A stretch of DNA of 64,000 nucleotides from Kappaphycus alvarezii. Taxonomy: Eukaryota; Rhodophyta; Florideophyceae; Gigartinales; Solieriaceae. This document shows, piece after piece, positions 10,006 through 62,613 of this stretch. The DNA lies in NCBI GenBank assembly GCA_002205965.3, contig NADL03000604.1, forward strand, positions 434,001 to 498,000, in the 5' to 3' direction. Numbering within the stretch: position 1 is the stretch's first letter; the number at the start of each line of letters is the position of its first letter. The notes under the pieces were generated by a model. That model did not search any database. It had not been told where the DNA came from and worked only from the letters and a program-made list of their open reading frames with translations. A program made the position numbers and the translations under genes.

Positions 10006-10919
10006 AAAAAAAACGTCAACCACTAAGCCACATGCGCTGGCATGTCAAGTGGTGCACTGAGTGAACACACAGCCCATTTCAACACCCCCCCTCACTCATG
10101 GGACCACAGAGTGCTATAAGGGCTCAGACATCTTACACATCATTCCTATCACCTATAGGACAGTAATCAATGCCGAAAACACACAAATTAAATTTTCACC
10201 AGTGCGACCACTTGCGGGGCTCTAACCCGCGATGCTATCATATAGGAAAAACACATCGACCACTAAGGCACATGCGCTTGCATGTCAAGTAGTGCAATGA
10301 GTGAACACACAGCCCATTTCAACACCCTAACCATCCTAAAAACAACGGCGCCAAAGCTGGCGCCAAGGACACCACGCTCAACTATAACGACGTCGTCCAA
10401 GAACTCAGCGAACCCAACCAGCAGCAGCACACAACCGACGACGAAGAAATGGAAGCAAACCAGAGTAATTATTTCGTCGACTTCGCCACAAACCCAACGC
10501 CCCTCCAACACAGCACACCCGATATGCATCCCCTCCTCACACCTATTCCAACGTCGTCCGCCACTTACTCCCACTCACACATACTTTTTCACCCGCAGAA
10601 GCAAACCGCGCACCATAGCGACCGGAATGCTACCCAACCCTCCCCCTCCGCCCTCCCCCCCTACTCCCCACCCGCCAACCAACCCCCCAACCAACCATAC
10701 CCCACCCCACGCAGACCGTCCTCCTTACCAAAGGCCAGCCAACGACAAACCCCAGCAAGAAAACCACCCTCGCCGACACCAAATGACACCCTCACCTAAC
10801 TAGCCTACGACTGGTCTCAAACTCAATCGTGCTGTACCAAATATAATCCAACTCATAGCGCGCAGCCGAACCATACCCCTCATCACATTGGCACTCAGTA
10901 GGCCATTCCCCCCAATAAA

Positions 10920-11795
10920 ATGCCTACCATGCCGGCACGCCAAACTCACAAAAGCGCCCCACCACCCCAACACAGCCCACTACAAAATCGGCAGCTACAC
11001 CAGCTCCGACACGTGTGGCCTATCTCTCCTACATCCAACCATGGCAACCGCCACTTCCTCACCTTTGTCGATGCAAAATGCCGTTACCTCAAAATCTACC
11101 TCCTCAAATCCAAATACCAGGTAGCGTGGTACATGCCAATCCACATGGCCGTCATTAAACCGCTCCATGGAACCTCCCCCCACATCCTACGGGTAGACAA
11201 CGCCAAGGAGTTCACCTCTCACCACGTACGCACCCTACCAACACGGCACCACCTTGAAGCCCCACACACCCTAAACCGCAAGAACAATTCTAGGGATGAA
11301 CGCATAAACCTCACGTTCCTCAATGCAGCCCGTGCCGCACTCGTAACCGCCAGACTGCCGGACTCATTTTGGGAGGATGCCATCGCCGACGCTGCCTACA
11401 AATACAACATAATCAGACAATCCGCCACGCAAACTCCCCCAGCTAAGCTCCGGCACGGCACCACGCCCAACCCCACCAAACTCTTCACATTCGGGGAAAT
11501 CGATCCCGTCCCAATCCACAAGCTGAAAACAAAACCAGCCCCGAGAGCCAGACTGGTGCGCTACATGAACACCATCGAAGACAAGATCATCCAAGTCTGG
11601 GACCCCAACACCAAATCTTACTACAAAATACGCGCCCAAGACTTCAATCCATACAACGCATGGCGAGACGCTGCGCAGACCATATCCACAGCATTACAAA
11701 CCACACCACAGCACCTCCTTGACCCACCACAAACAATTACACAAGCCCGATCCTACCTAGACGCACAACTATGGGCTGCCGCCCACGACCAGTAA
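10920..11795 (+). pseudogene. copia 1 integrase
   Basis: A 291-codon frame covering the integrase core: HFLTFVDAKCRYLKIYLL (first Asp) near 11053-11106, ILRVDNAKEFTS (second Asp) near 11190-11220, and RDERINLTFLNAARAALVTA with the catalytic Glu near 11300. It then has P-D-S-F-W-E-D-A-I and A-A-Y-K-Y-N, usual in copia. No ATG fits a true start, as expected for an internal polyprotein segment. The next domain needs a frame change near 11800. Confidence 0.75.
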
Positions 11796-12180
11796 CTAGA
11801 AACTTTACATCGGGAAGGTACCTTCAAATAGATCCACAAAAACCGAGTCCCCGTCTTAAAGGAGTTCATCCCTCTCAAAATTTCCTATCGTTACAAACAC
11901 GGGGACTCCCTCCAGATAGAGCTAAAAGCTCGCTGTTCGGTCCGCGGCGACCGCATGCAACCATACCTACACTATGACCCAAACCACACAACGTCCTACA
12001 TTGCAGAAAAACTAAGATCCGCCTCCTCCTTGCACTCGCCACATGCTATGGCTGGCATTTTGGCCACTTCGACATATCAGCAGCCTAATTACACGAACCC
12101 TAAAACATGAAAAAACGGTTTAAGTCAAGGAACAACTAAGATTCAAAGGGTAGCTCCACCACCCCCACTATACCGCTATC

Positions 12181-12489
12181 CTACTCCGGAACCTGTATGG
12201 AACCCCACCCGCCGCGCACATCTACTACCAGGGCCTCTTGCAGTACCTCACCACCCACGGATACCTCCAGAGCCACGCTGACCCGTGTCTATTCACCAAA
12301 AATGACCACGGATACCCAATGTACATCACGGTGAGCATAAACGACTTCCTATTTGTCTCACCTCGGCCCGAGGTCTCAGTGAACTATTCAACGTTCTTAG
12401 ACGAAACACGAGATCAAAAACCTAGTACACCCCACCACATACCTCAAATAGCATTGTTGAGACAACCCTGGAAGGTCATATTCACATAA
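12181..12489 (+). pseudogene. copia 1 reverse transcriptase fragment
   Basis: Residues TVSINDFLFVSPRPEV sit where copia has Y-V-D-D-(I/L)-L; here the Asp pair is replaced by N-D, so the catalytic site is damaged. Upstream, H-G-Y-L-Q-S-H-A-D-P-C-L-F-T-K matches the segment that usually precedes the motif. Stops and frame changes lie on both sides. Confidence 0.6.
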
Positions 12490-12714
12490 GCCAGCCCAAT
12501 GCCATCAAATCACTGCTCCACAAAACGGGCATGTCGCAATGCAAGCCGAGATCCACACAGCTACTGGAAAACAAAAACTTGAAAGAAGCCCTCAACTCCC
12601 CCAACTCCCACCGGAACTCAAGAAGCAGTACCAGGTCATAATCGGTGACCTTACATACCTGACGGGCTGCACCTGTCCTGACATACAGTTCGCAGTCAAA
12701 AACTCGTAGCAACT

Positions 12715-13325
12715 ATGCAGTCGCCCACAAACCAACACCAGAGCCTCCTAAACTGGCTAATGAAGTACCTGAAGGCTACCGAATCCCAAGGAATCCTCTA
12801 TTGCTACCGCAAAATCCCTGCAAGACCAGCGTCCCACCTTCCCACCAGCTACAGCGACGCCGACTTCGCCAATTCGACGGACCGTAAGTCCAGAACTGGC
12901 AGGGTGCACACGATATACGGAGCACCTGTCCATCGGACAAGAAGCAAGCAGCATGTAGTTGTCAAATACACATGCGAGGCTGAGTACCCCGCTGGCTCCA
13001 AGGCAGCCCAGCAACTACTCTGGATCGGGCGCCTTATCCAGTACTGCAGCCAGCACGCACCGGATCCCACCAAGCTCCTTAATAACAACAAAGCTGCGAT
13101 CCAAGTCTCCAATAGCCGTTCTACAACAAAACGGCGAAAAATCATCGATATTCCCCACAACCACATCGTCGACAACGTCAACAAGAAATTGGTAACCGTC
13201 CACTACGTTCCAAAAGAGCACAACGTTGGTGACATCCTCACCAAACCCCTCGGCAATAGTAACCGTCCACTACGTTCCAAAAGAGCACAAAGTCGGTGAC
13301 ATCCTCACAAAACCCCTCGGCAAGC
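12715..13325 (+). pseudogene. copia 1 RNase H with a duplicated C-terminus
   Basis: SYSDADFANSTDRKSRTG (first catalytic Asp region) near 12850-12900 and CEAEYPAGSKAAQQLLWI (Glu) near 12975-13025 identify RNase H. The terminal motif VTVHYVPKEHNVGDILTKPL is followed directly by a second near-copy reading YVPKEHKVGDILTKPLGKLK in another frame, from a tandem duplication of about 65 bp. Confidence 0.75.
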
Positions 13326-31270: not shown

Positions 31271-32537
31271 GAATGAACGGGCGATAGCCCGTGGGGGGTG
31301 TCCACGTGGTGACTCTGATGGAGCGGAGTTGTGTGGTGAGCAGGGGTGGGGCGAGGGGAGGCGGATGTGTGCCCAAGCAGGAATGGTGACGGGCGTGAAT
31401 TGAGAAATGTTTTGGGCGAAAAGCTGGATCGATGTCGAAAGTAGGGTGGGGGAAAAGTGGTTAAACACAGAAAGTTTGAGTAAAGTGGGCAAAGTTGGCG
31501 ACTTATGTTGGAGATGGCATCGAAAAGTTTCCCTTGCTTTTGGGCCGCGTGTCAGCCTCGCCGGCTATTTGAATGGTTTTTGGGAAACGAAAATGTGGTA
31601 TTTTTAGTCCAAATGGCCAGATTTTGTTTCAAGTCGCCCGATTTGGCCGAAAAACGCAGTTTTCCAGACCAAAAAAAAAAAAGCGGGCAAGAAAAAAAGG
31701 TCGCGAGTGCACGAGATGTACAGTACACCATGATGTGTTGAGGGTTCTTCAAGAAACATTACAGTTAGGGATGAGTTGAGCATTGCAGATCCAGTACAAG
31801 TGTATAATACTGTGCTGTAAGCAAGAGTGTAGAATACGTGTGTGTGTGGCCATGCTGTACAATGCTATACCGGCGGTAACATTTTCACTGAAAGCCTGAA
31901 AAGCACGAGCAGTGCTCAGTGATGCACTTGATGTGTCCTCCCTTGGCGCCGGATGTACAGTACTGTACAGTAAAGTACAGCAAGTACAGAAAAGTACAGT
32001 AGTCTGCGGTATTGTAAGGCAGTAGTGTACTTCCAGATAACCGAGTAAATTCTTTGTTTAATAAGAACGTGTCTGGAGTACTGTACTGCAATTGTACATG
32101 GTACAGTACAGTACTGTACCGCAGTAACCAACGGAATGGGTTACTGTACTGTACAGCACAGTGCGCAGTGTACATACTGTACGTATATAGGGAGGACAGT
32201 AACGGGCTGTACAGTACTGTAGCGGACTGTACGAGGACAGCATTGTACAGAATCAAACGGAATTTACACGCCAACAGGGTCAATGCAGATCACTTGCTCA
32301 TTTGTCTGCATCACCAACAGCCAACGAATGAGCTGCCGCGCAGTACTGATCATTTTACTGTACAATACATTCAAAAACCGTTGTGCTAATACTGCACTGT
32401 ACCATGTTTGCACATTACTGTACTGCACCAACCGAGAATCCGAAACCGTTACCCATTTTCACTCATCTTCCAATTCTCGACCCCCTTCTTCGTCCTCACT
32501 TTCGCAACCCAACCCAAATCACACCATCCTCCTCAAC
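31271..32537. promoter_or_regulatory. Shared divergent upstream region
   Basis: It separates the zinc-knuckle gene (minus) from the Kunitz-inhibitor gene (plus) and must hold both promoters. It includes an A12 run at 31671-31682 and the densest GTAC-palindrome cluster in the window. No TATA-type element was identified with confidence. Confidence 0.4.
31954..32428. repeat. GTAC-palindrome cluster, the largest here
   Basis: About 475 bp packed with GTACAGTACTGTACAGTA-type words. Open frames across it on either strand encode repeated Y-C-T-V-Q-Y peptides and are composition artefacts. Confidence 0.8.
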
Positions 32538-33056
32538 ATGCCTCACCACAACCACATCCTCTCTCACCCACCTCCAATCTCTCCTCCCTCTCCTCCCTCC
32601 TCCTCTTCCTCCTCCTCATCGCCACCCCAACAATCGCCCCCAAACCATCCCCACCCCAGCCCCAGAATGCACATGGAAGCCCGACCCTGGCCAATGCAGA
32701 GGCTTTTTCCGTCGCTACTACTACAACCCCGCCACTCAGGTACGTCATCATCCATCAAATCCACTCGCTCACCACAAACAGCCCACCCATCTTTATTTTC
32801 CGTCCCATCCAAAACTTAACCAACCATCCCATCCCCTCCCCTCCCTCCCTACCCGCGTCTTGACTCACCTTAGTCATGCGAGGTATTTGTTCATGGCGGC
32901 TGTGATGGTCGAGTCCCCTTTCGTACCAACCAACAATGCGTGGCCGCTCATTGTGAACTTGTTTCCACTTTACATCTGCCTTCTCTTTGGCTAAAGGTTC
33001 AACAAGATCCCAATCTACGCATTGTTTCGTTTCGAGCCTCCACAACCATCAAATAA
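32538..33056 (+). CDS. Secreted Kunitz/BPTI-type protease inhibitor, one intron
   Basis: Exon 1 (to 32739) ends ECTWKPDPGQC-RGFFRRYYY-NPATQ. The intron 32740-32873 (134 nt, GTACGT...TTAG) joins in phase 0 to SCEVFVHGGCDGRVPFRTNQ and QCVAAHC. The six Cys have spacings of 8, 15, 7, 11 and 4 residues, against 8, 15, 7, 12 and 3 in BPTI, so two gaps near the end differ by one. Y-Y-Y-N and H-G-G-C match the Kunitz core. The P1 position after the second Cys is Arg, so a trypsin-like target is expected. Stop at 33054. In front, SLLLFLLLIATPTIA is a good signal-peptide core, but ATG 32538, this core and the Kunitz domain lie in three frames. One extra base at two places in the C-rich stretch would join them (about 128 aa). 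Confidence 0.72.
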
Positions 33057-38618: not shown

Positions 38619-41029
38619 CTAACCTATCCACTTTCGAAGCGCTGCCAGTTTCACCGCAGATCCCTCATTCAGCTGTTGAATGTCCGACCCCTCGTGGAAC
38701 TCCTCATCCCGCCCATTGATACTTTCCCGCAGTTCCTTGAGTGCAACTCCCGCTTCTGCAGGTTTGGCCCGTTCCTCAATCACCTTGCAGAATCCGATCG
38801 TCGATTCCGGCGCGAAATTAATCATTATTCCGTTGCAAGTCTTTGCATGAACCAACATCGCTGCAATCCTCAAACAGCTCTTCTCCGATAAACTCTCAGA
38901 CTCCAGGCACCGGCTCAATTCTGTGCGAGTATTTGCAAATACTGCTTTCTCAACTTTCTTGTCCGCAGGTCTCCTCTCGGGCAAGTCCAACAGATTAACG
39001 TTTTCATCATAAAGAACTAGGAAATCCGGCACGTTCCCGCCACTCTTTTCACTTACAACTCCTAGAAAAGTTCGCAACTTCGATTGCAAGGTCGGCGTGA
39101 ACTTTTCAACAGTTGCTCTCAGAACCTCCAGCTTGTCCCTCTTTGATTTCAGCTCATGCGCATGAGCCGCGGCTGCATCCATAACACCCGTGCTTTGCGA
39201 AACTGAGTCTACAATTCGGCATAGCGCGTTCACACAGGTATTTTCCATCACATACGCCCTGCTAGCGTCCATGAGCTGTTCATCTGCTACAGTCCCAGCA
39301 GATTTGTAATACAATTCTGCTTTTTCTAAATCTGCAAGAAGAGCCTTGTCTGCGTTTTTCTTCGCAACAGCTCGATCCCGCAAAAGGTTGGCCACTGCTT
39401 CGTCTGCCTTGCTCTGATACAGAACAGATACCCCATCTTCTCCTAGTGATTCTTCAATGAGACACGATACCATCTCAAACCCGGCAGAGGAAGAGCCAAG
39501 GTAATCAGTATCTACAGCTGATGAGCATCCTTGATCAGAGAGGGTGATCTCGACCGCATCCTCTACGGACGGCTTGAATACTGGATGCGCCGATTCATCC
39601 GTGTTCCCTGTAACCGAGGTGTCGCGACTTGAATCACCCTTCGAAGCCTTGTCTTTTCCAGCAGCTCTCCTTCTACTTTTTCCTTTTCCCTTCCTTCCCG
39701 CCTCTGCAGATACAGTTTCTTCTCCTTGTCCAGGGGCTGAGACCCTAGATTGCGACGCTATGATTGACATTTTCTCAGTCATATCCCTTGCTCGCTGTTC
39801 TGCCCTCTGCACTGCGTCTTCAGTCAATTTGCTCATTAACGTTGATATCAAACCGGGAGAGACGAGAAATTGCCTGCCAAATTCCAGGCTCGTATTGGTT
39901 TTTTGCTCTTCCACTGCTGCAGAAGCCCTACCCTTACTCTTCCGCTTTGACTTTCCTGCCTTCCCGGATATTTGTGGGTCCTTCTTCTCTCCACCACCTT
40001 GCAGCGACTCTGCCAACTTCGTCACTACAAGGGACACGTCATTGGTGGGAAAACCAGGTGGTAAAGCAACTTCGACATCTAACCATGAATTGTCGGCCAG
40101 GGCTTCGCTAGCGGAAGTTTCCAAAGTCTCAAGAAGCGATGGACCAACCACACATTCACCCATGATGACTCCACCTGACAAGTTTCCCTCGACAAAAGCC
40201 GCGGTGTCCGCAACATGCACTCTTGACAAACGATCAAGAGTTACGAAACCATTGGACGTAAATTCGGAAGAGATGACCTGCTGTGCGGCATCAGAAAACA
40301 CCTTAGGGGCAAACACAGCTCTGGATTGCCTTCCGATGACCGAGCCTTGCAGTTGACCAGCTTTCAACATATCAGCCACGTGCTCGGTAATAATATTGGG
40401 CGAAAGCCCCCGAATTTTCGCAAGCTCTGCCAGAACAATAGGTACTGTGGTTGCGCGCAATAATCCCCTTGCAGCAGAGCGGTAACGGGCCACAGAAGCG
40501 GCAGATAGCAGTACGTCATTATTACGGGGATCTAGCTTTGCGTGGATGGTAGCGCCGAGGTGCGTGGTAATCGTTTCGCGGATGATAGACACAGGGAGAG
40601 AGTAACGTGATGCGATTGAGCCTACGTCGTCAATGCCATTTTCGGATGAAGTGATATGGTCATTGATTTCCTCTGCAATTGAAGCGAGGTAGTAATCGGT
40701 GAGGAGCTCTCCACGGATAAGGCGTATAGACGGGGGATTGACTAGTTCATCGATGGCTTTTTCGATGTGTGAGAGTTCGACGTTGAGGGCATCGGGGAGT
40801 TCAATGACATTGACGCGGCCACCGCGTGTCAAGAGCTCGTCGGAAACTTCGTGCGTCAGTTGGGCAGGGGTGAGGTATTCCTTCCCAGAGCGAGTGAAAA
40901 TTAGATCGATTAATTGGAGTGATTGGAGTTTCATTACCAGGTCTACGCAGTTGCGGTCGAGAGCCTCTGACCAGTGGATGACTGCTGAATTGTGGCCAGC
41001 TGCTGTTGCAGCTGAAGAATCTCCTCCAT
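38619..41029 (-). CDS. UFL1: E3 UFM1-protein ligase 1 (UFL1), one apparent 1-nt loss
   Basis: UFL1 transfers UFM1 to targets, mainly ribosomes at the ER. About 803 aa after correction, close to the family's usual 790-800. ATG at 41029 starts MEEILQLQQQLATIQQ, the expected N-terminal helix. This frame must change near 40985-40995 (one base added) to enter WSEALDRNCVDLVMKL, GKEYLTPAQLTHEVSDELLT and RGGRVNVIELPDALNVELSH, which are diagnostic of UFL1 winged-helix repeats. The frame is then open to the stop at 38619. Two basic stretches (KSKRKSKGRASAA near 39930; KGKGKSRRRAAGKDKASKGD near 39660) match the family's Lys-rich linker. The frame can be extended upstream past 41029 without an ATG, so that extension was not used. 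Divergent from the ATP synthase d gene. Confidence 0.88.
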
Positions 41030-41520
41030 GGTTGGTTGCTTTCCGATATTCGATTGAGGCTGGGCAAGTAACGAATTGCGACGCTGACTGATTCTTCGAG
41101 GAACAATTGCTGATTTCAAGAACGCAAGACTCACTATTATGCCACAGAGGCTCCTTGCCTGGAACAGTGAGGTTCGGATTTCTCAAGAAGGATGTTCAAG
41201 AAGGATGTAGCCAGAACGAACCCTACGCATTGCGTCGCGGGGACTTGCCGGTTTGCTGGTCTTGAGCCTGCTAAGCTGTTTCGAAGGAAAGACCACGTGG
41301 CTCGGAAATGGCTTGATTGAACTGTCAGCTTTCTGTAAATGAGAAAGTAAGCCGAAAATAGTGTGGTCTGAAAGAACACTCCAAATTCTATCTGCAGCCA
41401 CTAGTACTGGTTTCAACAACGCAAACGGATTGTTCTCCTAGTCGCCCCCTTTCTCATTCGTGGCATTGCCTCTCTTCCTCACCACACGCAACTTCAAGAC
41501 TTTTTTTCAGTTGATCAAAG
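41030..41520. promoter_or_regulatory. Divergent promoter region, UFL1 and ATP synthase d
   Basis: 491 bp between two divergent starts. It holds ACCACGTGGC near 41292-41301, a G-box-like word, and a pyrimidine-rich stretch just before the ATG at 41521. No TATA box was identified. There is no GTAC cluster here, unlike several other divergent gaps. Confidence 0.4.
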
Positions 41521-42111
41521 ATGCTCGCGACCACAGCGCGCCTCGTCTCGCGCGCCACGCGCTCCAATGTCGCCCGCACGATGCCCCGCGCCATGTCATC
41601 CCTAACCATCAACACGAACCCCGAGCAAGTTGCCCTCGAGGATATGCCGCGCTTCGAACCCGCTGAATGGTTCAAATCGTTTGATGAAGCGGCGATCCGC
41701 GGTCACCTAGCCAAGCTTCGTGACATTGAAAATGATATCGTTTCGTCCATGATGGCGGAGGGTGAGCCGCTGGATTGGGATCAATGGAGATCTACCATCA
41801 AATATCCGGGGCTGGTTGATGAGCTGAAGCAGATTCATGACAGCCTGCCGGTACCAGATGTGGAGGAGGAAAAGAAGAGGCTGGTCGCGGAAACAGAGGC
41901 TACGTTTGCTCCCATTATCGCAAAATTCGAACAGATGGCTGCCGATGGCGAGGCAGCGACGGTAGAATTGGAGAAGAGGGCGGCGGAGGTTACTTACATG
42001 AGGGATAATGTCGCAGATTTGACTGTCGAAGAGTTTTTGGACAAGTATCCTGGCGTCAAGGCGTCCATTGAGGACGATATCGCCAATAATAGATGGTTTG
42101 CAGAGGAGTAG
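41521..42111 (+). CDS. ATP5H/ATPQ-like: Mitochondrial ATP synthase subunit d
   Basis: Subunit d is part of the peripheral stalk of mitochondrial F1Fo ATP synthase. The 196-aa frame is uninterrupted. Residues 1-25 (MLATTARLVSRATRSNVART) form an Arg-rich, acid-free mitochondrial presequence. Residues 76-105 carry PLDWDQWRSTIKYPGLVDEL, matching the family pattern I-D-W-x2-Y-K-x3-(A/x)-x-x-G-L-V-D-x-F. A helical segment rich in Glu follows (EMTEK-like VELEKRAAEVTYMRD) and the C-terminus has LTVEEFLDKYPGVKASIEDD, matching the family's 'M-T-x-E-D-L-N-x-x-F-P' end. ATG 41521 is the first in frame and gives the leader. Intronless. Confidence 0.88.
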   Translation: MLATTARLVSRATRSNVARTMPRAMSSLTINTNPEQVALEDMPRFEPAEWFKSFDEAAIRGHLAKLRDIENDIVSSMMAEGEPLDWDQWRSTIKYPGLVDELKQIHDSLPVPDVEEEKKRLVAETEATFAPIIAKFEQMAADGEAATVELEKRAAEVTYMRDNVADLTVEEFLDKYPGVKASIEDDIANNRWFAEE

Positions 42112-43200: not shown

Positions 43201-43985
43201 ATGCCGTTCTTCATCCCCTCCATCTGCCCTCTCCCCCGCGCCCCACCCACATCTCACATCTGTTCTCCACGTGCGCAACACTGCCCCCCGTCCCCGACCC
43301 AACACCCGCGGACTGGCGGTCTTTCCGAGCGCGGCTAGTACAATCCGAGCGAGAAGCATCCACCACAGCTCCCTCGCTCTCACATTGGGCACACGAGGTC
43401 TCCTTTATCGAAGCTGGTTGCCTGCTTATTGCAAGTCCTGAACATTTTGTAGGCGAGCATGCATGCTCGTTTTTTGCGAATTCGGTTGTGCTGATCCTGT
43501 CGCATGGTTTGCAGACGGGGACTATTGGTGTGATTCTGAATCGTCCAGTTGGTCAGGCCGTTTCTGAACCTAGATTGCGTGCGGCGTTGGACGGGACGCC
43601 AGCGCCGTTGTACTTGGGTGGGCCGGTGGCGTTGGATAGTTTGTTAGCGGTTCATGATGATGAGAGTGTGCCAGGCGCTGTGAAGGTGGTGGAGGGTGTG
43701 GCGACGTCTGGAGTGGCCGAGGTGTTGAGAAGGGTAGATAGTGGGGGATTGGGGAGGGAGAGATGTCGGCTTTTTTGCGGATACTCGGGTTGGGCTGGGG
43801 GACAGTTGCAGGAAGAGGTCGAGCAAGGAGTTTGGTATACGGCTGCTTGTTGTACAGAAGTGTTTATGAAGGGGGGCGGGGAACGTGATTTGCTGAAACG
43901 CGTTTTGGGGTTGATGGGGGGGCGGTTTAGGGAGATTGGCGGGCGGTTGGATGACAAGGAGGGGGGAAGGAAGTCTGGGATATGA
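43201..43985 (+). CDS. YqgE/AlgH (UPF0301) family protein with organelle leader, one apparent 1-nt loss
   Basis: Family of unknown biochemical function, found in bacteria and in plastid-bearing eukaryotes. ATG 43201 opens MPFFIPSICPLPRAPPTSHI, Pro/Ser-rich with Arg and no acids at first, like a plastid leader. One base added to the C run 43284-43289 joins it to DWRSFRARLVQSEREA, then EAGCLLIASPEHFVGEHA, ILSHGLQTGTIGVILNRPVG, YLGGPVALDSLL, FCGYSGWAGGQLQEEVEQG and W-Y-T-A, all at family positions. Stop at 43983-43985; about 261 aa corrected. Without the extra base the leader frame stops near 43338. A 16-bp perfect palindrome, CGAGCATGCATGCTCG, lies in the coding region at 43454-43469. Confidence 0.82.
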
Positions 43986-49827: not shown

Positions 49828-52182
49828 ATGCCCTTGCCCTCCCTTTTCAACTTGTTCACCCTAACCTGCACCTTTCTCACAGACCCACATGTCCTCTCCG
49901 CCGCCTTATGTATTGCCCTCGCCGTCGCCCTCTCCTACCTGCTCTCCTCAACCCCGAAACCCCGCGACGCAAAACTTCGTACCGTCGCAAACGACGTCCA
50001 ACTCATCTCCCCCACTACCTTTCTCTTCCGCTCCTCCAATCCATCCCACCCTAACATCCTCGTAGACACCACCTCCGCCCACATCATCGCCCTTCACCCA
50101 AAACCAAACTCCGCCCCAACAAACCCCACCCCCCCTCCCGCCGAACCACAACCCACATCCACAACCCTCGAATCCCGTGCACCGCGCCTTTCCATCTCCC
50201 TCCCACTACGCCCTGCACACTTGAATCCAAACCATTACCGCAAACAACACATTGCAAACATCCACGACATCCGTCTCCTGGATCGCGGCCTACACTTTCA
50301 CCACGGTCGTGCCGTCTCCCTTGCCCCCGCTCTCGCTCCCTCAGCTCAACACACCGACCTCTTTTTCAATTCCCGCTTCGCCACACAAGCATTTCTCGAC
50401 GTCTTGTACAATGTCCGTGCACAGCGCGAGTCACGCCCCGACAACCTCGCCCTCTTTCTCACCACTTTCAACGTCGGCAACTCGCAACCCCCGCACGATT
50501 TGTCCGCCTGGCTCTCACATGCCAATCATGCTCATATCGTCGCCGTTGGCGCTCAGGAGTGCTCCTACACCGCCACTTCACCCGTGTCTGTCTCCCCGCC
50601 CCACAATGCTACGCCGTCCCATCGCACAGTGTCACAGTTGACATCGCTGGCATCCAACCCGTCAGCCTCGGATTACTCGTCTGAGACTTCCCCGCTCTTG
50701 CAAAATGCTGACACACACGACGATATCCTCGCAAGATTGCCGAGTGCGCTCCCGATTCCTACCCAAAACTCGGCCAGTACGTCGGGGAAAGAGCATTGGC
50801 ATGCCTTGCTTACCGCTCATTTTCCAGAGCCTCAGTATACTTGCATTGCCAAATTGGCCGCATGGGACCGCTGTTTGTCTGTATTTGTGAAAACTTCGTT
50901 GCTCCATGCCGTATCTCGTGTCCGCTCCGATACTGCAAACGTCGGACTGGGTGGCATGGGCGGGAACAAGGGCGCTATCGGTGTTCGCTTTTCCGTTTTT
51001 GATACTGACTTTGTTATCATAAATTCGCATCTTGCCGCACATATGAAGGAGGTCAATCGACGAAATGAGGACTTTGCGTCCATTGCTAGCGGACTTCGTA
51101 ACTTGAGGGATAATTCAGAGGTGGATATTTTGTCCAGTGCTGTGCATCACTTGTTTTGGATGGGAGACCTTAATTACAGAGTTTCCATGGATAGGGATAA
51201 GGTTTTGCAACTCATTGAGGAGCGGCAGTGGGCAAAACTTCGCGAATCTGATCAACTGGTACAGGAAATGGCCGCGGGTAGGGCGTTTCATGGATTTCAG
51301 GAAGGCATGACCGACTTTCCGCCCACGTACCGGTACGAGTACGGGTCGCGAAAGTATTCCACCTTTAAACTTCGCGTGCCGTCCTACTGCGATAGAGTTC
51401 TTTACCGATCGCTACCGGGGTCCAAGTTGCAACTCGAGGAATACAAACCCGCAGATGAGATCATGACGTCGGACCATTCTCCAGTGTACGCGAAATTCAC
51501 CGCGTCGCTCTCGCACACGACAGGAATGCGAAGCTTGGAGGCGATAGCCAGTGAGATCGGGGTTCAAGAGGCGCGTGAAATGGGGATTATTTCGCCGATG
51601 ATATCGCCAATTGTATCACCTCGATCCTTGTCGATGCGAGCCTTGATTCCAAGCGGGCTCGGAGGATCTGGTGGGACTGGCCTGCAGCTGGAATTCAAAA
51701 GCTTGCGTGCTAGGAGTATCCCGGAGATGGATCATGGAGGTCGCCGAATTGCTGTGGCCAAGGCTTTGCATATTCACAACCACGTTGGGTGGAAAAAGCA
51801 TGAGGAATTGGGAGAAGGGCAGCACGCGGACCCGTATTGTACGTTTCATGGGGATGCGGTGGCTGAGTTGGATGAGGGGGAGTATCGCACACGAACAGTG
51901 ACTGCTTCGCAAAACCCAGTGTGGGAGAAGGATATGATCCCGGTGATTGATTTGATCAATAGCGGAGCGGAAAGTTTGAAAAGGAGGTATGTTGTTATAA
52001 CGGTTAAAGATGAAATCCCGACACGGCGAGACGGTGTGATTGGATCTGCCGTGCTGTGGATGGGCGGGGAGGAGGAGGAGAACGAGAATGGAGAAAAGGA
52101 GGTGAAGTTTCAATTGCAGATCTCGTCAGGGGGAAGACAACAGGGAGAGGTGAGCGGCTCATATGTTGTGAAGAGTGGGTGA
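49828..52182 (+). CDS. Inositol-polyphosphate 5-phosphatase, membrane-anchored, with C2-like domain
   Basis: Removes the 5-phosphate from phosphoinositides or soluble inositol phosphates. The 784-aa frame is intact and intronless. Residues 22-39 (VLSAALCIALAVALSYLL) are a likely membrane anchor. Catalytic motifs in order: TFNVGN (213-218), VAVGAQEC (238-245, Mg-binding Glu), GGMGGNKGAIGVRF (375-388), INSHLAAH (398-405), WMGDLNYR (444-451), PPTYRY (498-503), PSYCDRVLY (518-526) and TSDHSPVYA (547-555). These are the diagnostic WXGDXNXR and PXWCDRXL motifs, with Tyr for Trp in the second. Residues about 640-780 (DPYCTFHGD, NPVWEKDMIPVI, VVITVKDE) look like a C2 domain. Residues 246-320 are a low-complexity insert. 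The first 600 nt are very C-rich and the last 600 G-rich. Confidence 0.92.
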   Translation: MPLPSLFNLFTLTCTFLTDPHVLSAALCIALAVALSYLLSSTPKPRDAKLRTVANDVQLISPTTFLFRSSNPSHPNILVDTTSAHIIALHPKPNSAPTNPTPPPAEPQPTSTTLESRAPRLSISLPLRPAHLNPNHYRKQHIANIHDIRLLDRGLHFHHGRAVSLAPALAPSAQHTDLFFNSRFATQAFLDVLYNVRAQRESRPDNLALFLTTFNVGNSQPPHDLSAWLSHANHAHIVAVGAQECSYTATSPVSVSPPHNATPSHRTVSQLTSLASNPSASDYSSETSPLLQNADTHDDILARLPSALPIPTQNSASTSGKEHWHALLTAHFPEPQYTCIAKLAAWDRCLSVFVKTSLLHAVSRVRSDTANVGLGGMGGNKGAIGVRFSVFDTDFVIINSHLAAHMKEVNRRNEDFASIASGLRNLRDNSEVDILSSAVHHLFWMGDLNYRVSMDRDKVLQLIEERQWAKLRESDQLVQEMAAGRAFHGFQEGMTDFPPTYRYEYGSRKYSTFKLRVPSYCDRVLYRSLPGSKLQLEEYKPADEIMTSDHSPVYAKFTASLSHTTGMRSLEAIASEIGVQEAREMGIISPMISPIVSPRSLSMRALIPSGLGGSGGTGLQLEFKSLRARSIPEMDHGGRRIAVAKALHIHNHVGWKKHEELGEGQHADPYCTFHGDAVAELDEGEYRTRTVTASQNPVWEKDMIPVIDLINSGAESLKRRYVVITVKDEIPTRRDGVIGSAVLWMGGEEEENENGEKEVKFQLQISSGGRQQGEVSGSYVVKSG

Positions 52183-54558: not shown

Positions 54559-55260
54559 TTATCCACGATCGTCTCCAGCTGCAGTTGCCTGTATCTCAGC
54601 CCCGTAGGAACAATGGCTAACTCTGTGTTGCTTCTGTGATGTCCAATAGATTACGTGATAGACGTCTTTCTCATCAACGCTTTCTCTCGATAAAACTACG
54701 GTAATGATTCCACTCTGACCGTAATCAAGATCTTGTGGATGAGATGAGTCTGGGAATGTGAATGGGCATACGTCGGTTGTATTGTTGACTGCTTTGTATG
54801 TGATTATTGAGCTCAGATTCCGCAACTCCTCCAACATCTTATTGGCGTCGACGAGATGTTCAACTTTGAGTCTACCTAGATTCTGTTGCATGATGGAAAC
54901 AACATACGATGCTTGCGGCAATGATCCGTTTCCCAAGTACAGCAGTGTACCAGCCAGAGTTCGATAGCTTCTTGTTTCTGATGCCGTTGCAAGATCTTCC
55001 CTGTATTTGCGCCTTGTGCGTGACAGAGGTATCGGTTGGACGCGCCTCCAATATTCAGACATCGAAATTCTGATATCTCGGTTGCTGCATACCTCAAATT
55101 CACATCCGCTAAAGTTGAATGTTTGTCCCGAATGTATTTTGCCGATCTCAAACCGTTTCTTCATACTGTAGAGGAACATGTCGAGCTAGTGGTTCGTTCC
55201 TGCTGCCAGGAAGTCATCAGTCAACTTTGTGAGCAGTAGAATTATCTTTCCTTGCTTTTT
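54559..55260 (-). pseudogene. copia 2 reverse transcriptase end and RNase H
   Basis: Just upstream of 55179 the frame reads LLLTKLTDDFLAAGTNH, holding the D-D of the polymerase active site with the usual Tyr-Val changed. The 206-codon frame then has FNFSGCEFEV, RSYRTLAGTLLYLGNGSLPQ and, for RNase H, PDSSHPQDLDYGQSGIITVV, VIYWTSQKQHRVSHCSYGAE. The order and motifs fit copia. A stop near 55180 separates the active site from the rest. Confidence 0.75.
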
Positions 55261-55320
55261 GCGTTTGACAAAAAGCTGACTGACTGCGAATACTCGTTGT
55301 AGTCCTCCTTCCGTTAGCAT

Positions 55321-55677
55321 CTATTCGTCTACGACCAGCATCCATTGACATCCTGCCTCGAAAATGCCGTGGGGTAACTTAAGTAATTTCCATATGACCC
55401 CCTTGCGGTAACTGAAAGTCCGGTACCATTCGAGTGGTGGTCTTGCGTAGATATCACGTTTTATGGGGCCGTTCTGTAAATAAGCGCCTTTGATGTCTGT
55501 CACGCGTATTTGGAACTGCAAAAAAGTTACCAATGACAACACAAGTCTGACGATATTGAGTTGGTCGTTTGAGGAGTCTTTGCGTATTGCATCTTTCTCG
55601 TCATCCTCATTGCCATGAGGGCATATCCTAGCCTTCATCTTCCTTGTAACGCTCTCCTCAGTTTTCAGTTTGTACAA
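55321..55677 (-). pseudogene. copia 2 reverse transcriptase, N-terminal part
   Basis: MKARICPHGNEDDEKDAIRK, VRLVLSLVTFLQFQIRVTDI and DIKGAYLQNGPIKRDIY, then PPLEWYR and VIWKLLKLPHGIFEAGCQW. These match the copia 'D-I-K-G-A-Y-L-Q ... Y-G-(L/I)-x-E-A-G-R-x-W' segment, with the first catalytic Asp present. The frame is closed by a stop at 55321. Confidence 0.82.
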
Positions 55678-55788
55678 AACATGGGACCGGATAACATTTG
55701 CGTCTTTATGTGTGTCTCGTTCTTCGACCTCTTGAAATGCAGTGGCCCAGTTTTCGTCAAATTCTTTATTGTATACCTCTGTTAATAT

Positions 55789-56990
55789 TCATGATGGTGC
55801 GAAATGTAATTCGCGTATCATTAACTGCTTTGAACCAACAAGTTCGTAGATTTCGTCTAGCACTCGTGCCCGATCCGATTGAAGTACTTGCAACGGCTGT
55901 AGTGGCCCACTGATGTGATCAAGTGGCTTGCCTATCTCCTTTACCGTGTTCTTTTTGAGTGTCTTATATGGTCGGTCTGGTCCTGTTATTGTGTCTTTGC
56001 CGACATCTATCATTGTCGTAGGCATGTCCGTTGAAATTTGCGCAGACATAAGTGCATTGATGTTAGTTGGACACTGTTGCCGTCTTGCATAGATATCATC
56101 TCCCCCTTTGTCCAACGAATATCCGAGTTCCTCTTCGAGGGAACACGCCATAAGTTCTTGCGTTAATGGAGATTGCGGGGCTAGCCTAATGTACTTATAG
56201 GCGGGTATCATTGTTGGATTTCGCATCGGTACGCCACCCTTTAGTCGCCTGACTTCGGTAAAGTGTTCGCATGTGTTAACCACCGATGCTTTAACCCACT
56301 CGTTCCGCTCATTCCCCTTTGTCGACGCATTCCATACCCAGACAATGTCTCCTCGCTTGTATGAATCTTGTTTAGGGGCATTGTTGGCTTTATTGCGCAT
56401 AGCTCGTTGAAGTGCTCTTGTCGCAGTCTGCTCCACATGTGTATCTACCAATGATTGTGGGACTTTTGTTACAGGCATGCCTAGTACCGATGGTTGGTAA
56501 CCTCGCACAATTTGAAAGGAGCCGAGGAGTCTCGATCCAGATAAAAAATTAGAGAAGAAGATTGAACGGGTAACCACCTCCTCAGGGCTGCATTCCGATA
56601 TTTCCCGGTCGATACGCCTGACAATGCTCTTCACTGTTTGTATCTTTCGTTCTACAATGCCTGTCTTATTGTGTCTGCGCGTCGGACGTATTTTGAACGC
56701 GATGCCATATGCTTCCATGAACAAACATATCGGCCGTCTGTTGTACTCGTCATCCGCTGATATGGCAAGCGGCGCGCTGTGCTTCATTATCCACACGAAC
56801 TCTATAAGGTTACTCATGGTCTTAGCGTCTCTGGAATTGGATATAGCTCCCTCTTTAAAGCCCGTACCCGTGTCTGTGGCGATAAATATCGTGTGTTTCT
56901 GCTGTCGAATTATTTCGAAGCAAAAATCTACCTGTATTTCATTTTTGAATGCAGAATTAACATGTGTGATTGATAACTTGTTCGAGTTGT
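55789..56990 (-). pseudogene. copia 2 integrase
   Basis: A 342-codon frame runs from 56817; integrase sequence begins a little upstream in another frame with TIFIATDTGTGFKEG (first Asp). In the main frame: AISADDEYNRRPICLFMEAY (second Asp) and NKTGIVERKIQTVKSIVRRI (catalytic Glu), then a chromatin- or DNA-binding C-terminal part with D-S-Y-K-R-G-D-I-V-W-V-W. All three catalytic residues survive. A frame change near 56820 breaks the domain. Confidence 0.83.
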
Positions 56991-57029
56991 GCGGTCTTCC
57001 AGAGCTTTTTCAAATTTCACATGCTACAT

Positions 57030-57647
57030 CTATTGTGCTGATTGCCGGGCTGATTGCCCCTTTAGCTGAGGTGTCATTATGCCCGCTTGCTTGCAAACGT
57101 CGAATATTTGATCGGCATGTTCGTGCTTTATGCGGTGGATACGTTTTGCGAATACCTTAGGCTGACATGTGGCCATCTTAGATAACGTAGATGTCATCAT
57201 GGTGGTGATGCATGTACGCGGGCGGGGTATAATCTCAACTCGAATCCGTTCTACCATGTGGTTATCTTCATCTTGTGATATATACGTTGACAATACTCGT
57301 TTTGACGAGTCTAATGGAGGCTTGATTACTATGTGTGACTCGGAGTCGATGTTGTTCTGCAAGACAAATTTACCAACGTCGAGACCTATTACTAAGGGTG
57401 AGTCCCCATCAAAAAGATCAAGACAAAGTTTGCAAGGGTTCATGTTTTTCTCTAGGACTGTTAATTCCCATAGGCCGATGATAATCTTCGGGTTGAGGCA
57501 TTCTTCACCCCATCCATGCCAGTATTCCTCCTTTGGTGGCTGTATCTTCAGTCGAATCTCCGGGATATCACATACTCTTGCAGCATCATTAACACCGCCG
57601 ACAGAGCGTGGTGGTCCGGGTTCATATACCGGATTGGGGTCTTCCAT
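57030..57647 (-). CDS. copia 2 protease region and integrase N-terminus, restart at TAATG
   Basis: ATG at 57647 overlaps the stop of the upstream Gag frame by one base (TAATG, 57645-57649). The 205-codon product has SVGGVNDAARVCDIPEI and SPLVIGLDVGKF, which fit the flaps of a retropepsin fold in this copia lineage, then HRIKHEHADQIFDVCKQAGI, resembling the His-rich start of the integrase zinc domain. No D-(T/S)-G-A active site is visible after the ATG, so the protease is either cut or begins in Gag. Stop near 57030. Confidence 0.55.
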   Translation of the reverse strand: MEDPNPVYEPGPPRSVGGVNDAARVCDIPEIRLKIQPPKEEYWHGWGEECLNPKIIIGLWELTVLEKNMNPCKLCLDLFDGDSPLVIGLDVGKFVLQNNIDSESHIVIKPPLDSSKRVLSTYISQDEDNHMVERIRVEIIPRPRTCITTMMTSTLSKMATCQPKVFAKRIHRIKHEHADQIFDVCKQAGIMTPQLKGQSARQSAQ

Positions 57648-58852
57648 TAGCCACTGAAATAACGGTGAGGCGGTGGGGACTTGTGGCTATGTGCGCGGTT
57701 GTCGTTGTTTGTGCTATCGTCGTTCTCATGGAATCGAACGTTCTTATCAGTCCTGTTTTCGTTGTCGTGCCTATGATTGGTAATTCGATGCCGTAGGTCC
57801 GTACTATCGTCAGTATGCGCGCTGCGCAGCGTTTTTGTAATTCTAGTGTCCTTTCGTCCCTTTCCATAGTGTGGACACTCCGGGTCACCAGCCCAGTGTC
57901 CATATAATTTACAGGATTTGCATTTCGAATTCATTTTAGCTCCCGTTACTGGTGAAATGTATCCTCCTGCTTTTCGCGTGTGTGATGTCTCGGGTTGGCG
58001 ACCACTTGACATCATTGCACCGACCGTGTTTCGAGTGTGGTCATTATGTTCATTGCTTGGACACTTAGAATCATTTACATCTGCTTTTACATTCTTTAGT
58101 GCGGCTATTGCGTCTTCAAACCCAAAGTTTAGTTGAATGAAATCAGCTTGGTTGCGTTTCTCTGCCTTTAGCCCTGCCTGCGTGATTATACTAACTTTGC
58201 AGTCTAATGATTTGAAGGCTGAATTGGCGCTGTTGCCGTCATCCTCACGTTCTTGATTACCTTCAAGCAAGCTAGGTACTTGGTTGACAGATGACGTAAT
58301 GATCCCAGTTTGTTCCATGTATATCATGAGAGACGAAGCGGTCTTGTTTGTTCCGGTGGTGTCAGTTCCCTGTTTTGAGACGAGTAGGCTCAGTGGGTTG
58401 TTGTAAACCGTGTCTGGTAGTTGAGAGTTTTCTAACATGATGAGGGCTGTTTGCTGCTTCTCCTGGTCGCTTGGTGCATGGCGAAAGCAGTTGAGATGAG
58501 CTTACGCTACACCTCTGAACAAATCCGCGAATGTACCATAGTCCTCACTCTTGTACTGGCGACAATTAAAGACATTGCGGCCGAAGGATATCATACGTTT
58601 GGCGGTATCCGTGGGTGAGTCCTTTGCTACGGCCTCTAAGATCTTTCCAACGACTGCTGTTTGCTGTCCGAATGTCATAACTGATTTGTTATCGTCTGTA
58701 TCCAGTGCCGATCTGCCTTCCTGCATTTCAGCCTCCACCACCCGACGGTAGCTATGGTTTATAGACGCGTATTGTGCATGTCCTAAACCATTCACAAAAC
58801 CTTTGCCTTGGTATCTACTCCTTGCGCAAACACGCGGACTCTTCTCATCCAC
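57647..58852 (-). pseudogene. copia 2 Gag with CCHC zinc knuckle, one stop
   Basis: One frame covers 58852 to 57647 with a single TAA at 58502-58504. The C-terminal third has KCKSCKLYGHWAGDPECPHY, a zinc knuckle (C-x2-C-x4-H-x5-C), followed by an Asp/Asn/His-rich tail. Helical Gag parts include SVMTFGQQTAVVGKILEAVA and DYGTFADLFRGVA. The stop may be a real mutation in this copy. Confidence 0.78.
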
Positions 58853-61517: not shown

Positions 61518-62613
61518 CTAGTCAGCGTCTGCGTTATTTTCCGGAACGATCAGTGGCGGCAGGTCCTCAACTACGCAAGGATCGCTCCTTTCCCGGAAAC
61601 ATTTCACCTTTTCGACAGAAGCGCGAATCTGGCGGTTATCTATGTCCAACGTTAACATCTTCCCTTGTACATCGCGTACTACATAAGGAGCTATCCATTT
61701 GCCCAAAGGTTTCTCCCTGTATATCAGGACCTCATCACCGTATGAATACGTCGTATCCGCTACGGCAGGAAAGTTTGCACGCAAAGCCGACTTTAAAATG
61801 ACTTCGTGAGATGTTCTTGTCATTTCCTTGCACGCTTCCGTTAATGCCTTCATTCTGCTGTTGTGATCAGTGAGATCAATTGTCATGAGTGGTATACGCG
61901 GTAGAGCACTGAATACCAGTTGAGTGAGGACGAGGCCAGAGGGCCCAGTAGTATCATTCGTTTCCTTTACCGCCAACTGGAGAGCGAGTCTTCGTTCGAT
62001 GCACGAGTTGTCCGCAATGATTTTGTTGTATACCCTGTGGAGGTACGAATGATAGCGTTCTCCGACGCCTAGGGCTTTGTGACTCTCAATTTATGAAGAT
62101 TTTTCCTTGACGCAGTATGCCTGCAATAGGTTTTACATTCGAGGGATTCGAACTGAGGTCTCTGGTCCATGCCGACGTTGTCGGGAAAACCGACGTAGGT
62201 TGAAACCAATATGCGCATAAACGCAGCCCGCGTCTTTGCCGTTGATTCTCCATCAAGAAAAACGTTGCGTTACACTTCGTATCTTTGTCGACCACATGCA
62301 GAACCGTACGCTTCTCCAGCTTCATAAGATCCAGGCACACTGTGCGGTTGAACACGCATTCCCCGTGGGGCAAGGATACCTTGAACCTGTGCGGCCCGTC
62401 AGCTTCGCGTTGGCAGACTTCACAAGTTGAAGATATTTTCTCAAGATCAGCTAACAAGTCCGGAGATGCGGAATTGGGGTCAGCCCTGTTTATGACTGAA
62501 TAAAACTTTCCAGGATGTGGGTAGTAGAAGTGAAGGTGTAACTTCCTTACTTCAGCGGAAGTGAAGAACATTTTAACAACCCATCCAATGTTAACGTGTC
62601 CGCCCTCTCGCAC
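61518..62613 (-). pseudogene. copia 3 integrase
   Basis: The zinc domain reads VRKLHLHFYYPHPGKFYSVI ... STCEVCQREADGPHRFKV (H-H-C-C). VCLDLMKLEKRTVLHVVDKD gives the first Asp region. After a shift, VGFPDNVGMDQRPQFES gives the second. SHKALGVGERYHSYLHRVY near 62060-62090 gives the catalytic Glu, leading into the 152-codon frame that ends at 61518 (SYGDEVLIYREKPLGKWIAP). All key residues are readable across several frames. Confidence 0.75.

Follow-up and report, generated by a model that had tools for sequence, protein, structure and literature searches.

The question raised by this locus is whether a Kunitz (BPTI-type) domain that becomes readable only upon the removal of an intron belongs to a genuine gene of a red alga and, should that be so, whether the gene is intact, what its product might do, and from which Kunitz domains it might have arisen. 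In the available text of the sources in question, the Kunitz_BPTI domain was classed as animal-specific (PMC2394772, 2007) and Kunitz inhibitors were termed metazoan (PMC5325619, 2017); the accessible part of PMC7344585, for its part, likens inhibitors of the green alga Ulva to the Kunitz type by heat lability and specificity, without sequence. Among the matches listed from the open-licence literature (titles and abstract starts), none was a paper on a red-algal Kunitz protein, and the available portion of PMC12115072, on the red alga Asparagopsis, does not mention Kunitz. A red-algal Kunitz gene is already public, a protein of Gracilariopsis chorda having been named and carrying PF00014.

The spliced domain and its second copy

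Within the window—that is, the whole stretch of 64,000 nucleotides that was analysed—the gene is composed of the following parts:

32538..32667, plus strand: leader region, with ATG 32538 (frame 0), the signal-peptide-like LSSLSSLLLFLLLIA (frame 2) and then a Pro-rich linker
32668..32739, plus strand: Kunitz part of exon 1, CTWKPDPGQCRGFFRRYYYNPATQ, with Cys 1 and 2, the P1 Arg and YYYN
32740..32873, plus strand: GT-AG intron of 134 nt, phase 0, interrupting the Kunitz domain directly before Cys 3
32874..33056, plus strand: exon 2, SCEVFVHGGCDGRVPFRTNQQCVAAHC, with Cys 3 to 6, the C-terminal tail and the stop at 33054-33056

Upon splicing between the donor CAG/GTACGT (intron from 32740) and the acceptor CCTTAG/TC (intron to 32873), the cysteines fall into the spacing C-8-C-15-C-7-C-11-C-4-C, with YYYN contributed by exon 1 and HGGC by exon 2, just as the preliminary description of this DNA had stated. 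That description had further maintained that no single open frame contains the domain, which statement agrees with a six-frame scan of the unspliced window, where the pattern C8C15C7C(10-13)C(2-4)C occurred 0 times. The profile search that had been proposed as a check gave 45.3 bits (E 1e-11) for the spliced core against PF00014 (Kunitz_BPTI; Pfam profile search) and 41.6 bits for the longer spliced product, the curated cut-off being 21 bits; the exon-1 frame alone, unspliced, reached 21.2 bits over half of the profile, a score barely above that cut-off. Among solved structures, 103 distinct sequences matched the window product at E <= 1e-3, with the Kunitz proteins SmCI, TFPI, and HAI-1 at the top. 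When the seven relatives described below were compared with the window by tblastn, a clear score was obtained at the Kunitz locus only (E 1e-8 or better per exon match); the next-best match (E 0.002) involved the non-conserved tail of one exon-1 open reading frame and crossed a stop. Rfam at the gathering score gave no match anywhere in the window.

At the level of sequence, these results confirm that the locus encodes a genuine spliced Kunitz_BPTI domain; and we judge the gene not to be a product of chance because the G. chorda homologue covers both exons and because the identity to a second copy in the same genome falls in the intron. That genome, whose assembly comprises 336,021,096 bases in 884 contigs, contains at least two Kunitz loci (protein search, whose counts are lower bounds), the second being on the minus strand of another contig, C586. 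A search of the genome with PF00014 gave no match and missed even the known gene, since each exon by itself scores low. Between the two copies, 70 of the 72 columns of the Kunitz part of exon 1 and 181 of the 183 columns of exon 2 including the stop are identical, as against 115 of 135 in the intron; the four exon differences comprise three silent changes and one Leu/Ser replacement in the tail, which replacement is the only amino-acid difference over the 84 residues compared.

The similarity extends beyond the gene: window positions 20546-47517 are collinear with C586:2037000-2086500 in four blocks of 79.7-94.8% identity, between which C586 contains extra stretches of about 5 kb. The two contigs may thus represent either two haplotypes or an old duplication. 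The neighbouring genes in the window are:

38619-41186, minus strand: E3 UFM1-protein ligase 1 (UFL1)
41521..42111, plus strand: mitochondrial ATP synthase subunit d, the syntenic neighbour
43488-43985, plus strand: AlgH-like DUF179 protein
49828-52182, plus strand: phosphatase-family protein (Exo_endo_phos2) with a C2 domain

The gene for ATP synthase subunit d accompanies the Kunitz gene on both contigs, at a distance of about 8.5 kb (downstream) in the window and of about 18.6 kb on C586; and in G. chorda the two proteins are each listed on a contig with a size of 553227, which we took to be the same contig. The window subunit d has 12 protein matches, the best being 99% identical; the identity is 47% with G. 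chorda, 44% with Gracilaria domingensis, and 79% with a transcriptome entry. Both of the species named here are red algae, and the DNA of the window is accordingly red-algal; identities as low as these place its source probably outside the Gracilariales. The intron, the long contig, and the shared neighbourhood rule out bacterial contamination.

Elsewhere in the window, the open reading frames at 10282-13299, 54559-58438, and 61518-62613 resemble the remains of retroelements, on the basis of motifs that we take to be typical of such elements; an integrase-core match at 10920-11795 was weak and under its cut-off. Dense palindromic repeats resembling TACTGTACAGTA occupy positions 31960-32240, immediately upstream of the Kunitz gene.

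Start codon and leader

The coordinates of the preliminary description implied a start at ATG 32538, and its text envisaged a small secreted product, both of which proposals required modification. In the window the three elements fall into three frames, namely frame 0 for that ATG, frame 2 for the hydrophobic LSSLLLFLLLI (Kyte-Doolittle mean, 2.94), and frame 1 for the Kunitz exon, and a reading from ATG 32538 accordingly yields another frame and not that of the Kunitz domain. In the domain's own frame the best hydropathy stretch attains merely 1.18, and the sole ATG inside that open frame in the window is at 32404. The C586 copy, by contrast, proceeds from the matching ATG through the leader and the Pro-rich linker into the domain as one open preprotein of 128 aa, from which the window differs in the leader region by two single-base gaps. 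The leaders of the relatives are hydrophobic in all seven instances, with Kyte-Doolittle peaks of 2.25-3.13. A separate upstream leader exon could be ruled out, leader and domain being in one open frame in all five of the relatives that represent exon 1 as well as in the second copy.

Because the C586 copy is open throughout and the leaders of the relatives are hydrophobic, ATG 32538 is probably the right start, with the window copy being mis-sequenced or broken; the three-frame split would then reflect, through two one-base differences, either an assembly error or a real lesion. The start so implied stands in the C586 copy, where ATG, leader, and domain share one frame, and fails in the window; secretion, likewise, is favored by the hydropathy of the second copy and of all the relatives, the window leader being out of frame. 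If the lesion is real, the window copy would be a pseudogene in which two one-base losses have wrecked the leader, and the C586 copy alone would work, which circumstance we regard as rather unlikely. The number of gaps—exactly two, for a leader region distributed over three frames—speaks in its favor, as do the two neighbouring open reading frames of 855 and 784 aa, whose intactness gives no sign of frequent errors in this part of the sequence. The leader stretch, however, is 58% C and thus of a kind prone to sequencing errors, while the domain is undamaged, as are both splice sites, and the protein is, as stated, nearly identical to that of the second copy.

Red-algal relatives and the predicted inhibitor

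An initial search of about 5.8 billion proteins returned a single match, the G. chorda 'Isoinhibitor K' (P0001), which protein is 57% identical to the 87-residue window query at 99% coverage, with both exons and the tail included; over the full preproteins, the C586 product of 128 aa and the G. chorda protein of 126 aa are 51% identical across 122 columns. A profile search added six further proteins (P0002 to P0007) among 238 candidates. Only one of these seven relatives, P0001, bears a species name, and that species is a red alga, in keeping with the earlier assignment of a Kunitz gene to an algal genome. The domain is entire in P0002, with the same 8-15-7-11-4 spacing as in the window, whereas in P0003 to P0007 a leader precedes only the front half of the domain, which gives way, exactly 14 residues past Cys 2, to Val and then Arg or Ser. 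A Val at that point fits an intron donor starting with GT, as in the window, and the donor position, as read from the proteins, is common to all five. P0002 also contains a seventh Cys within the domain (GCDGCVPF) and has a longer tail.

In the eight family members the P1 residue—found to be Arg in the spliced product, as had been claimed—is Arg in six and His in two (P0002 and P0007); the P1' residue is Gly or Ala in all eight, and a Gly is located two residues ahead of Cys 2 in all eight. NCBIfam contained no match for three algal-type proteins, no relative was found among the IMG/VR viral contigs, and phages gave no match either to the window gene (near mode) or to the bacterial protein described below, which latter query also found no match among plasmids. 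To judge from these alignments, we are dealing with a conserved red-algal Kunitz family having a domain-splitting intron and, in the present genome, a second intact copy. A conserved and spliced family of this kind, with the bacterial-like loop considered below, shows the Kunitz domain to have a stable existence outside animals, and offers a candidate seaweed protease inhibitor for testing.

In inhibitors of the BPTI type, an Arg at P1 predicts a trypsin-like target. The binding loop of the window product reads PDPGQ-C-R-G, in which neither the Arg at P1 nor the Gly at P1' would conflict with protease inhibition; and we are fairly confident that the gene, with its two exons and the intron inside the domain, encodes a single-domain, secreted serine-protease inhibitor of the Kunitz type, most likely directed at trypsin-like proteases. 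The leader would export the protein from the cell, three disulphides (1-6, 2-4, and 3-5, as in BPTI) would hold the loop exposed, and the P1 Arg would occupy the S1 pocket of its trypsin-like target, blocking that enzyme in the manner of a substrate—Kunitz inhibitors being described, in the available text of PMC5325619, as acting substrate-like at 1:1. The likely targets would be proteases of grazers, epibionts, or pathogens, those of the alga itself being less likely. The predicted structure of P0001 was of poor quality (mean pLDDT, 49), and a Foldseek search with that model gave Kunitz/BPTI entries by title at ranks 1-40 (rank 18 being titled a snake-toxin complex), none of them significant, with a best E of 0.073 and low TM-scores.

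The fold might alternatively have been kept without inhibition, in a secreted signalling, structural, or channel-binding protein. Animal Kunitz proteins, according to the part of PMC5325619 at hand, are not all directed at proteases, potassium-current blockers in one cestode family being an example, and the His at P1 in two of the eight family members would be consistent with such a role; the binding loop of the family, with the P1 Arg of the other six and the invariably small P1' residue, argues against that role, which we consider unlikely.

The fourth-gap loop and the comparison with known Kunitz domains

The last gap of BPTI is 3, and the last two gaps of the red-algal domain each differ from those of BPTI by one residue. 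The preliminary description had presented this spacing as a departure from BPTI, and the spacing itself stands; its meaning is modified, in that it is common to all three of the full-length red-algal domains and has exact bacterial counterparts. The fourth gap of 11 residues contains an xPF loop (DGRVPF in the window) in all three full-length rows of the red-algal type, in contrast to the gap of 12, with GNxNxF/Y, in all seven animal domains compared; the window gene has no such 12-residue loop. Among the best 60 of 118 PDB rows, Cys 5 is included in 56, of which 53 exceed the red-algal profile by one residue at this point, many of the rows being BPTI variants. BPTI has a Tyr35 and an Asn43 region; in the red-algal product, by that numbering, a His replaces Tyr35 and the Asn43 region is lost, two departures that count against the reading as a BPTI-like inhibitor.

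When GTDB contigs were scanned with the three full-length cores, a single relative (L001) emerged, a lipoprotein-like protein of 83 aa from a Bacteroidia metagenome-assembled genome. PF00014 was matched in 6 of 395 genomes from its phylum, in 3 of 22 from its own order, and in 20 of 296 from another order, which three sets of genomes overlap. The spacing scan of the bacterial loci gave 29 pattern matches; two were chance patterns in long proteins, leaving 27. Twenty of these have the spacing 8-15-7-11 with the xPF loop, the last gap being 3 in 14 of them, 2 in three, and 4 in three, the last group (L012, L015, and L022) thus having exactly 11-4. The other seven (L005, L006, and L023-L027) form a second bacterial type, in which the first gap is 9 and GGC is replaced by SGC or TGC; and at L007:1408-1658 a domain broken over two frames in its assembly was missed by the spacing scan.

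We compared the two affinities by means of profiles and trees. With the loop included, the three red-algal-type rows scored higher, in all 30 draws and by a mean of 12-16 bits, against profiles built from seven random bacterial rows than against a seven-row animal profile; upon removal of the loop columns, the mean bacterial-minus-animal difference was -2.3 to -0.1 bits. In the corresponding controls, left-out rows were sorted correctly in 7/7 animals and 19/19 bacteria with the loop and in 6/7 and 17/19 without it, one of the two missorted bacteria being L002, the bacterial row nearest the red algae. The tree from all 47 columns placed the seven animals on one side (98/92), and weakly joined L002 to the red algae (76/82). 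That pairing recurred upon removal of the loop (93/74), the remaining branches then having no clear order. Not entered in these trees were L001, which is identical with L002; L005-L007 and L022-L027, which deviated in spacing, had a split frame, or contained unread positions; and, on the animal side, domain 1 of HAI-1 and domain 2 of boophilin, whose printed alignments were incomplete. In the AU test without the loop, neither the red-algal grouping with bacteria (p 0.57) nor that with animals (p 0.43) was rejected, and with the loop the grouping with animals was likewise not rejected (p 0.33).

The red-algal family is thus bacterial-like in its xPF loop, which feature suggests a common origin with bacterial rather than with animal Kunitz domains; without the loop, the profiles and trees do not decide. 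Because this affinity rests mainly on one loop, of five columns, we take it as a lead and not as proof. As a tentative scenario, whose probability we put somewhat short of even, the family would have come from a bacterial, Bacteroidota-like Kunitz gene that was acquired before the split between Gracilariopsis and the alga of the window and would then have gained the intron within the domain, the P1 Arg, and the role of a standing secreted inhibitor. If true, that scenario would give eukaryotes a further line of Kunitz inhibitors besides that of animals, directed at grazers or epibionts, and would raise the significance of the gene, which otherwise is good and not startling. An animal-type gene acquired by transfer, or animal contamination, is improbable: although the near-equal scores without the loop and the AU values above would accommodate an animal source, the loop is of the bacterial kind, and contamination is opposed by the long contigs, on which the gene shares its neighbourhood with one that is red-algal.

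With respect to known systems, the animal Kunitz/BPTI domains (TFPI, SmCI, HAI-1, and boophilin) share with the red-algal domain the six cysteines, the gaps 8-15-7, the aromatic core, and the binding loop, and differ from it in the fourth gap; most of the printed animal alignments end near Cys 5. The bacterial domains share that fourth gap and its xPF loop in 20 of 27 instances, and L001 contains WIPDPGPC, as does the relative P0002; in contrast to the red-algal gene, they are encoded in one open frame each, have a basic P1 in only one of the 19 domains compared, have mostly a last gap of 3 and in 7/27 a first gap of 9, and are in some instances located within long open frames (671-1044 aa). 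The G. chorda protein, known from the protein alone and 57-60% identical, resembles the product predicted here in its hydrophobic leader, single PF00014 domain, 8-15-7-11-4 spacing, Arg at P1, overall length, and alignable C-terminal tail.
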